A DNA stretch of 64,000 nt from assembly GCA_024707015.1 (NCBI GenBank), contig JANGFR010000003.1, forward strand, positions 62,001-126,000, given 5' to 3'. The DNA comes from Candidatus Culexarchaeum yellowstonense. GTDB taxonomy: Archaea; Thermoproteota; Methanomethylicia; Culexarchaeales; Culexarchaeaceae. Under the pieces are notes generated by a model. The model searched no databases and was not told the origin of the DNA. It saw only the letters and a program-made list of their open reading frames with translations. A program made the translations under genes and the position numbers. Shown one piece after another: positions 20,440 to 22,345 of the stretch (positions are counted from its first letter, which is position 1; each line of letters begins with the position of its first letter).

Positions 20440-21429
20440 CTACAATGATGTAATGGATGATGATGTGTTTATCATGTCCTTCTTTAAAAATTCTAGAGTC
20501 TCTCTACACTTTTGGGATTCAATCTTTTCTTTCACAAGTTCCTTTATGCATTTCAGCATGTCCATCTCATTAATCTTTTCTATGATCATCTTGGCCCATT
20601 GTGTTAGTGTTGTGTTTTCGTTTATGTTTATTGGGTTGTGTTTCATTTTATGGTTTGGATATCTTAGTTGGGATATTTTCTTCTCGAATGGTTTATACCA
20701 TAATATTAGCATGTATAGTGTGATTGCCAATTGAAGCTTCATTATGAATCGATTCATTTGCTCCTCGTATGTTTTGCATATTTCTATGCGTTGCTCATTT
20801 GAGGTTATGTAATTCATTGCCGATGACAACATCTTTTGGAGGCTCGTTATTGTCTTTGTAATTTCGTTTGGTATGAGTTTTATGAATCTTTCCATGTTTA
20901 TCTCACACATCAATTCATTAATTCCTTTAAGGGTTTCCTCATCCAGTTTACTCAATGCTTTCTTACTGAGAACTTTAACCCTATCATGCATTTTATATAT
21001 CTCCACTCTACTCCTCGCTGGTTTGCTTAAAAGGCTTGATGCTATAGTTATTGTTTGATTTATGTTCTCCTTAAGCTCATTACAAAGTTTATCTATGGCT
21101 ATCCTATGATCATTGAAGGCATATAGTTTAACTTCATTTAAGTGTGCAAGTAGCTCGTAAGCTATGGAGTCTATGAATTCCATCGCTATTTTCAGCATTA
21201 TCGATTCAAGCGACACTCTCCTAATGGAATGCCCAATCTTTTCACCAATCCCCTCAACATCCACAAGCTTAAGTTTTAAGAGTATTGCTTTAGCAGCCTT
21301 CTCAAGGGATTGTTGAAGCATGAAGAGAGCTTGAGGATAAAACCCACCATCAAATAGAAGCTTTGAAGCACCAAAATCACTTAAAGCAACATCAATAAAC
21401 TCCACTGCAATATGAGATTCATCAATCAA
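20440..21429 (-). CDS. HEPN-domain protein with long helical C-terminus
   Basis: A 329-residue all-helical protein. Residues about 10-80 form a HEPN-like unit: ALSDFGASKLLFDGGFYPQA, then LQQSLEKAAKAILL and IGHSIRRVSLES, matching the QQAxEKALKALLL pattern and the following His. The remaining 240 residues are helical with hydrophobic stretches (LQLAITLYMLILWYKPF) and are not recognised. HEPN proteins are often RNases or partners of nucleotidyltransferase antitoxins, but the partner here is an acylphosphatase-like gene just downstream. Confidence 0.6.
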   Translation of the reverse strand: MIDESHIAVEFIDVALSDFGASKLLFDGGFYPQALFMLQQSLEKAAKAILLKLKLVDVEGIGEKIGHSIRRVSLESIMLKIAMEFIDSIAYELLAHLNEVKLYAFNDHRIAIDKLCNELKENINQTITIASSLLSKPARSRVEIYKMHDRVKVLSKKALSKLDEETLKGINELMCEINMERFIKLIPNEITKTITSLQKMLSSAMNYITSNEQRIEICKTYEEQMNRFIMKLQLAITLYMLILWYKPFEKKISQLRYPNHKMKHNPININENTTLTQWAKMIIEKINEMDMLKCIKELVKEKIESQKCRETLEFLKKDMINTSSSITSL

Positions 21430-21537: not shown

Positions 21538-21552
21538 TTTTAAGTTTAAAAT
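21538..21552 (+). promoter_or_regulatory. TATA-like element for nei, predicting a leaderless start
   Basis: TTTTTAAGTTTAAAAT is centred about 25 bases before ATG 21569. It supports initiation at that ATG, which leaves Val as residue 2 of the glycosylase. Confidence 0.45.
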
Positions 21553-21568
21553 CTCTGATAATGTATTC

Positions 21569-22345
21569 ATGGTTGAGGGGCCTACAGCTAAAGCCTATGC
21601 CATCAAAATAAGTAGGGAGTTTAGTGGCGAAATTGTTAAAGACGTTGTTGTCAAAACGTTTAAGAGGATCCACATTCCATTAACTGAGCTTTTTGGTAAG
21701 AGATTTGTGAATGCAGATTCTTTAGGGAAGAATATACTCTTATTCTTTGATGGACTGGCTGTGCGTGTACATTTAATGATGTATGGAGCAATTCACATTT
21801 ACAATATTGATGAAGATTTACTTAAGCCGGAGAGACTTGTTAGACTTCTTGTGAAAGGGTGTGAAAGGAAGCTTGTAGTTTATAATGCACCAATAGTTGA
21901 GATTGATAGAGCTGAAGGACTTGTTAGTAGACTTAAAGGTGAGCTTGGACCAGACCCATTAAGTAATGATTGGGATAAGGGGAGGGCTATTGAAAACCTA
22001 TTGAAGTTTAAAGGTGAGAAGGTTGGTGTAGCATTACTTAATCAATCCATCATTGCAGGTGTGGGGAACATTTTGAGGAATGAAATACTGTTTAGAGCTG
22101 GGGTGAACCCTGAAAGGACTATTGGAAGTTTAACAATGGTAGAGATTGAGAAGATAGTGGATGTATGTGAATCGCTCAGCAAAGAGTTTCTTAAAATGAA
22201 AATTGAGGGGAAGAGGATTGGGCCGCTCCTCATGGTATACAATAAATATAATGGTAATTGCAAGATATGTGGGGGTAAAATAAAGTTCTATATGCAGAAA
22301 CCCATAAACAGGAAGACTTTCGTATGCACTAATTGTCAAAAATAG
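21569..22345 (+). CDS. Fpg/Nei-family DNA glycosylase with Val at position 2
   Basis: A 258-residue base-excision glycosylase/AP lyase. It begins MVEGPTAKAY, has the helix-two-turn-helix LLNQSIIAGVGNILRNEILF near residue 155, and ends in a zinc finger CKICG-x15-CTNC. Family members normally use Pro2 as the nucleophile (MPEG). Here residue 2 is Val, as in vertebrate NEIL3, with Glu3 retained. The start is fixed by the VEGP motif and by an upstream TATA-like element. The function is inferred to be removal of oxidised or ring-opened bases. The gene is divergent from the HEPN gene. Confidence 0.85.
   Translation: MVEGPTAKAYAIKISREFSGEIVKDVVVKTFKRIHIPLTELFGKRFVNADSLGKNILLFFDGLAVRVHLMMYGAIHIYNIDEDLLKPERLVRLLVKGCERKLVVYNAPIVEIDRAEGLVSRLKGELGPDPLSNDWDKGRAIENLLKFKGEKVGVALLNQSIIAGVGNILRNEILFRAGVNPERTIGSLTMVEIEKIVDVCESLSKEFLKMKIEGKRIGPLLMVYNKYNGNCKICGGKIKFYMQKPINRKTFVCTNCQK

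Follow-up and report, generated by a model that had tools for sequence, protein, structure and literature searches.

The N-terminal proline is treated as the mechanistic signature of the Fpg/Nei DNA glycosylases, and NEIL3, which has valine at residue 2, is the accepted exception to this rule (PMC11323726). The use of Val2 by vertebrate NEIL3, stated in a first-pass annotation of the locus described here, is confirmed by that report and by PMC5727206, in which NEIL3 is described as essentially monofunctional: with Val2 it cleaves AP sites very weakly, and the V2P exchange restores coupled cleavage. NEIL3 also carries additional C-terminal zinc-finger domains (PMC6523847) and, according to the titles of PDB entries 7z5a and 8b9n, has been captured in covalent linkage to AP DNA. 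In Nei2 of Mycobacterium smegmatis, a Pro2 enzyme, P2A and P2C are reported to lose lyase activity, and P2A keeps 5-hydroxyuracil glycosylase activity, so that the glycosylase tolerates P2A but not E3A (PMC11323726). The same report describes an in vivo action of mycobacterial Nei2 on psoralen crosslinks for which the lyase is neither required nor enough on its own (PMC11323726).

The window analyzed here is a stretch of 64,000 nucleotides from Candidatus Culexarchaeum yellowstonense. Its ORF at 21569-22345 (plus strand) encodes a 258-residue product, MVEGPTAKAY...NCQK, and the proposed replacement of Pro2 by Val2 is real, in a full-length Fpg/Nei glycosylase beginning MVEGP. The features of the gene and of its divergent neighbor are as follows.

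20440-21429, minus strand: divergent neighbor of nei with an N-terminal HEPN domain (Pfam)
21539..21550, plus strand: TTTAAGTTTAAA, at -30 to -19, possible promoter element of TATA type (the window and L002-L006 have TTTAA at -30/-31)
21569..22345, plus strand: Nei-type DNA glycosylase ORF, 258 aa, Val2/Thr2 clade (translation, Pfam, alignment, AlphaFold2 model)
21569..21574, plus strand: start codon and Val2 codon, ATG GTT (sequence and comparison of relatives)
21575..21577, plus strand: Glu3, catalytic position (Glu in 19/19 Val2 and 15/15 Thr2 rows)
21728..21730, plus strand: Lys54, catalytic lysine, Lys51 of Nei2 by family alignment (Lys in 34/34)
21776..21784, plus strand: Met70-Met71-Tyr72, where E. 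coli Nei has Gln-Leu-Tyr (alignment)
21944..22201, plus strand: H2TH domain, residues 126-211 (Pfam)
22259..22336, plus strand: C-terminal four-cysteine zinc finger C231-C234...C253-C256 with Arg248 (alignment)

Upstream of the ATG, 34 codons of the reading frame are free of stops, yet none of them is ATG, GTG, or TTG. In seven relatives (L002-L006, L010, and L012), an in-frame stop and one sense codon immediately precede the ATG of MVEGP, so that the same start is forced in them, and an MVEGP-type N terminus recurs across independent genomes. Translation from another start, which would have removed Val2, is ruled out by the absent upstream start codons and these close stops. The element at -30 to -19 is consistent with a leaderless or near-leaderless start, as the first-pass annotation had assumed, but does not prove it: in 9/16 clade loci examined, including that of the window, a TTTAA occurs between -30 and -32, and scanning for Shine-Dalgarno-like motifs found one nearer than -18 in 0/16 of these loci.

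The protein matches Pfam H2TH (7.8e-17) and Fapy_DNA_glyco (2.7e-6) above cut-off in hmmscan and has the architecture of the Fpg/Nei superfamily, namely, the Fapy domain, the H2TH domain, a four-cysteine zinc finger, and the predicted fold. The catalytic Glu and Lys of the superfamily are present, and Val2 stands in place of the proline nucleophile. Glu3, Lys54, and Asn167 are kept in all 34 Val2/Thr2 rows and Arg248 in 33, the sole exception (L036) having an aberrant C terminus. In a profile built from 23 relatives (A1), E3, G4, K54, H68, M70, and N167, among others, are invariant, and residue 2 is Val or Thr. Residues 70-72 are M-M-Y/F or close variants across the clade, at the place of the E. 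coli Nei Gln-Leu-Tyr, which has a void-filling role. Family-level models place the protein below every cut-off: 83.9 of 400 bits for NCBIfam Nei2 (NF040775, a full-length match), 84.4 of 252 bits for E. coli-type Nei (NF007763), and 92.2 of 203.3 bits for Fpg/MutM (TIGR00577). The segment between residue 205 and the first zinc cysteine has 24-26 residues in the clade (26 in the window protein) and 24 in NEIL3, compared with 27-40 in 52 Pro2 rows. The long form of this segment is the 8-oxoG capping loop of Fpg (MutM). Segment length fails to separate Fpg from Nei, because archaeal Nei-type rows have 40 residues and some Fpg-like rows 27, and it was dropped as a substrate marker.

The AlphaFold2 model of the window protein (pLDDT 95.3, pTM 0.91) aligns structurally with NEIL3 at the top Z score (8b9n, Z 29.4, rmsd 2.4, 235 residues; 3w0f, Z 29.4, rmsd 3.0, 249 residues), followed by E. 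coli Nei (2opf, Z 28.1, rmsd 2.9, 252 residues), Nei2 (8tjg, Z 27.9, rmsd 2.3, 242 residues), Fpg (1r2y, Z 27.7, rmsd 2.2, 251 residues), NEIL2 (8th9, Z 24.9, rmsd 2.8, 235 residues), and Mimivirus Nei2 (4mb7, Z 24.8, rmsd 3.0, 245 residues). NEIL3 is also the best match in a PDB profile search (8.2e-32, over residues 44-257, with the N terminus outside the match), ahead of E. coli Nei (2.3e-26). These two results uphold the suggested resemblance to NEIL3, although in the Foldseek ranking alone Fpg structures come first and mouse NEIL3 is 15th. With the single sequence, bacterial Fpg 6tc6 was the best PDB match (2.3e-16) and NEIL3 the next (5e-14); a PDB search with the N-terminal 36 residues gave no useful match.

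The protein shares features with each of the closest described systems. With NEIL3 it has in common Val2 and the E-G-P start; in contrast, it ends at the Nei zinc finger, its clade is archaeal and has M-M-Y/F where NEIL3 has G-M-K, and the two are separate in the tree. E. coli endonuclease VIII (Nei) resembles it in length, E-G-P start, zinc finger, and the Tyr that ends the 70-72 loop but differs in its proline nucleophile and Q-L-Y loop and is about 22 percent identical. Mycobacterial Nei2 is of similar length (252 versus 258 residues) but has Pro2, and the Nei2 gene of the actinobacterial loci L121 and L122 adjoins a helicase gene, whereas no helicase gene lies beside the window gene. Mimivirus Nei2, which reportedly has Val2, shares the fold but is viral, and it scores 67.1 bits with the clade profile versus 116.6 with the profile of an archaeal class described below.

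Aligning archaeal Nei proteins at residue 2, as had been proposed, gave Val in 19, Thr in 15, and Pro in none of the 34 distinct full-length clade members read. Since all have Val or Thr, Val2 is a trait of the clade, and chance or a single-genome oddity is ruled out. The Val members belong to Thermoproteota, and the Thr members mainly to Asgard archaea and Thermoplasmatota. Among 98 archaeal and bacterial Fpg/Nei rows, residue 2 is Pro in 52, Val in 19, Thr in 15, Ser in 2, and Ala in 1, and in the other 9 Glu directly follows the initiator; bacteria were sampled via plasmid records only (seven sequences, all Pro2). Identical rows and the fragments L031, L060, L061, L095, and L096 were removed from this set; of the dropped fragments, L031 shows Val2 and L096 Thr2. 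The same-genus genome G002 and Ca. Culexarchaeum nevadense GBS-70-058 encode an identical protein (L004 = L016). Starts were picked by rule (a start codon near the expected place with Glu two residues on), which favors the family pattern, except in 10 rows set by hand: eight discussed below, L050, and L070, which has an ATT start.

In a survey with the A1 profile, clade-level matches (over 330 bits) were found in 17/398 genomes of the window's phylum (16 Val and 1 Thr), in 5/227 genomes of the phylum of the Asgard record L025 (all Thr), and in 9/389 genomes of the phylum of the Thermoplasmata record L028 (all Thr), with N termini read for those matches taken as loci, that is, among the matches listed. 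Two further genomes of the last phylum have broken or split genes (G793, with Thr readable, and G843). Two pattern-based scans of viral contigs confirmed no viral relatives, and plasmid and phage collections gave distant homologs only (less than 30 percent identity among the matches listed for P0001). Some bacterial Fpg/Nei subgroups are reported in NCBI CDD to have an N-terminal Val or Ile. Other residues occur outside the clade: two Thermoproteota genomes of 3.0-3.4 Mb (L039 and L041; G325 and G353) encode a protein beginning MSEGPE (Ser2), and L097 encodes an Fpg/Nei protein beginning MAEGPT (Ala2). The Fpg-like L050 begins MEFPEL, with the initiator at the place of Pro2, and its zinc finger has Thr for Arg, as in the related rows L040, L042-L045, and L047-L049.

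A second, smaller group of archaeal sequences has the initiator codon directly before EGP. These eight genes (the MEGP class) are the following.

L038:1492-2214, minus strand: MEGP-class gene
L065:1489-2223, minus strand: MEGP-class gene
L066:1495-2223, minus strand: MEGP-class gene
L067:1489-2223, minus strand: MEGP-class gene
L068:1489-2223, minus strand: MEGP-class gene
L115:1453-2220, minus strand: MEGP-class gene
L103:1402-2115, plus strand: MEGP-class gene
L105:1399-2115, plus strand: MEGP-class gene

Five of the eight (L038, L066, L068, L105, and L115) have no in-frame ATG, GTG, or TTG upstream; L065 and L067 have such codons, and L103 has none and would need CTG as its initiator. Against the PDB, the MEGP profile scores 201.6 bits with NEIL3, 142.6 with NEIL2, and 116.6 with Mimivirus Nei2, the next match reaching 88.3. 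In structural alignment, residue 1 of an MEGP model aligns from residue 2 of the NEIL3 and NEIL2 chains (7z5a, Z 30.9, rmsd 1.9, 243 residues). Judged by profile and model, the class is a set of archaeal NEIL2/NEIL3-like glycosylases with the initiator Met at the place of Pro2 or Val2. Met-Glu is not known to be a substrate of methionine aminopeptidase (MetAP), so Met1 would provide their N-terminal amine. The class is rare, with 4/227 and 1/398 genomes above 330 bits with the MEGP profile; its three Thermoplasmatota members come from the A1 survey rather than from this search. In a limited literature collection, we found no related paper on NEIL3 and Asgard archaea, none linking NEIL3, N-terminal valine, and archaea, and none joining endonuclease VIII, archaea, valine, and Schiff base.

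Phylogenetic trees, midpoint-rooted only and with several long or compositionally odd rows, place the Val2/Thr2 clade (98/99) and a NEIL3-MEGP clade (100/99) together against the Pro2, Ser2, and Ala2 rows (95/92) in an analysis of 57 rows. When NEIL2 was added (58 rows), the union with NEIL2/NEIL3 was supported at 97/93 and the Val2/Thr2 clade at 92/98. The Val2/Thr2 proteins do not nest with NEIL3 but form a separate clade beside NEIL2, NEIL3, and MEGP. The AU test rejects Val2 and NEIL3 as an exclusive clade (p 0.001) and also Val2, Thr2, and NEIL3 without MEGP (p 0.006), and thus, in this sample, no exclusive common branch accounts for the Val2 of both NEIL3 and this clade. The shared Val is therefore no signal of direct orthology to NEIL3, which is ruled out as its explanation. 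Grouping of Val2/Thr2 with E. coli-type Nei (p 0.167, or 0.166 with NEIL2 included), which the best tree separates, and with Nei2 (p 0.115) is not rejected. A position beside NEIL2/NEIL3 is thus favored by these trees but not secured, and Val or Thr at residue 2 marks a genuine branch of enzymes that may lie close to animal NEIL3.

The source genome (1.71 Mb in 42 contigs, rated 99 percent complete) shows one such Fpg/Nei gene. The absence of paralogs rests on protein and profile searches, because a PF01149 search of the genome missed the nei gene that hmmscan finds above cut-off. Searches of the same genome gave no match to Xth, an Nfo-like match below cut-off (24.7 of 129.65 bits), and two HhH-GPD proteins, which could serve as a lyase source. 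Type II MetAP is found above cut-off at two places. The nei gene is flanked by the HEPN-domain gene on one side and, on the other, by a gene for a class IV aminotransferase (plus strand). Comparison of the window with 17 further loci (Pfam on 29 neighbor proteins) revealed no gene arrangement common to the clade. Single neighborhoods include a gene for a nuclease with ERCC4 and helix-hairpin-helix domains immediately downstream of the Val2 nei of a Thermoprotei MAG (L024:1366-2019), genes for UvdE (UV endonuclease) and DNA photolyase at distances of two and three genes from the Val2 nei of Ca. Geocrenenecus dongiae (L022:2540-4769), and TtuA-like genes as divergent neighbors of nei in L027 and L029.

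The likeliest reading of these sequences is an active enzyme with a primary-amine nucleophile, because Glu3 and Lys54 are kept in 34/34 members and the zinc-finger Arg in 33/34. Specifically, we propose, with a probability of roughly 0.48, that the product is a working Fpg/Nei-superfamily base excision glycosylase for oxidized bases, with the primary amine of Val2 in proline's place and a weak lyase. Small second residues, Val and Thr among them, permit removal of Met1 by MetAP. Met1 would be taken off by the encoded type II enzyme, exposing the alpha-amine of Val2 where proline usually stands and allowing a putative Schiff base through Val2. Glu3 and Lys54 would work as in other members, and the H2TH domain and Arg248 would hold the DNA. 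By similarity, substrates are probably oxidized pyrimidines and hydantoin-type purines, as for Nei and NEIL3. Base excision would be stronger than AP-lyase cleavage: a weak lyase is expected from the weak beta-elimination by NEIL3, whose nucleophile is a primary amine, and the analogy with NEIL3-V2P makes it plausible. However, exchange of Pro2 for Ala or Cys abolished the lyase of Nei2, so there is no guarantee that a primary amine functions in this site.

Alternatively, Val/Thr may be a near-neutral exchange in an ordinary bifunctional Nei, with glycosylase and beta-lyase of normal strength on duplex DNA. The remaining catalytic residues are all kept, Met-Met-Tyr/Phe occupies the place of Nei's Gln-Leu-Tyr, Val and Thr alternate over the clade, the AU test leaves the grouping with E. 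coli-type Nei standing, and the genome has no clear AP endonuclease, which a glycosylase-only enzyme would need. However, Val2 NEIL3 is reported as a weak lyase (PMC5727206) and Nei2 P2A and P2C as lacking lyase (PMC11323726), and we consider normal lyase strength unlikely.

It is quite unlikely that the protein is a NEIL3-like enzyme specialized for single-stranded DNA or interstrand crosslinks, despite the profile match, the top Z score, the tree union with NEIL2/NEIL3, and the ERCC4-domain nuclease gene adjoining nei in L024. At 258 residues it lacks the accessory domains of NEIL3, its loop differs, the single sequence matched bacterial Fpg above NEIL3, and no neighborhood shared among relatives points to crosslink repair. 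The suggestion that Val2 by itself may signal such specificity is not borne out by a clade-wide Val/Thr residue, missing NEIL3 extra domains, and an M-M-Y/F loop; nor is crosslink specificity implied by Val2, because a Pro2 enzyme, mycobacterial Nei2, repairs crosslinks too.

Less likely still is a purely hydrolytic glycosylase, in which Glu3 assists attack by water and residue 2 forms no Schiff base. The survival of Nei2 glycosylase in P2A but not E3A (PMC11323726) and the essentially monofunctional NEIL3 (PMC5727206) agree with such a mechanism, but the covalent trapping of NEIL3 does not, and in 89/98 rows residue 2 is small (Pro, Val, Thr, Ser, or Ala) and compatible with Met1 removal, suggesting that a free N terminus matters. 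Finally, a wrongly placed start or an assembly error, to which the open frame 5' of the ATG would lend itself, is already refuted on sequence grounds by the absent upstream start codon, the stops in relatives, and the N terminus repeated in independent genomes, and its probability is negligible.

Preferring the primary-amine glycosylase, we conclude that the window protein is a real, consistent variant of a known enzyme family and that the wider lead is the archaeal NEIL2/3-like MEGP class. For Culexarchaeia MAGs, the predicted optima exceed 80 C (PMC9723716), and the Val/Thr clade would offer compact, probably heat-stable enzymes for testing the role of the nucleophile. This clade spans several archaeal phyla, and MEGP adds Met at the same place. 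We tentatively suggest, as a doubtful but possible interpretation, that the whole branch to which NEIL3 belongs shares an ancient archaeal loss of the proline, with Val, Thr, or, in the MEGP class as the nearest to NEIL2/NEIL3, unprocessed Met providing the catalytic amine. If true, archaeal primary-amine glycosylases would be the ancestors or the sister group of the animal Val2 enzyme, which would then be no vertebrate oddity, and the origin of NEIL2/NEIL3 would be brought within reach.
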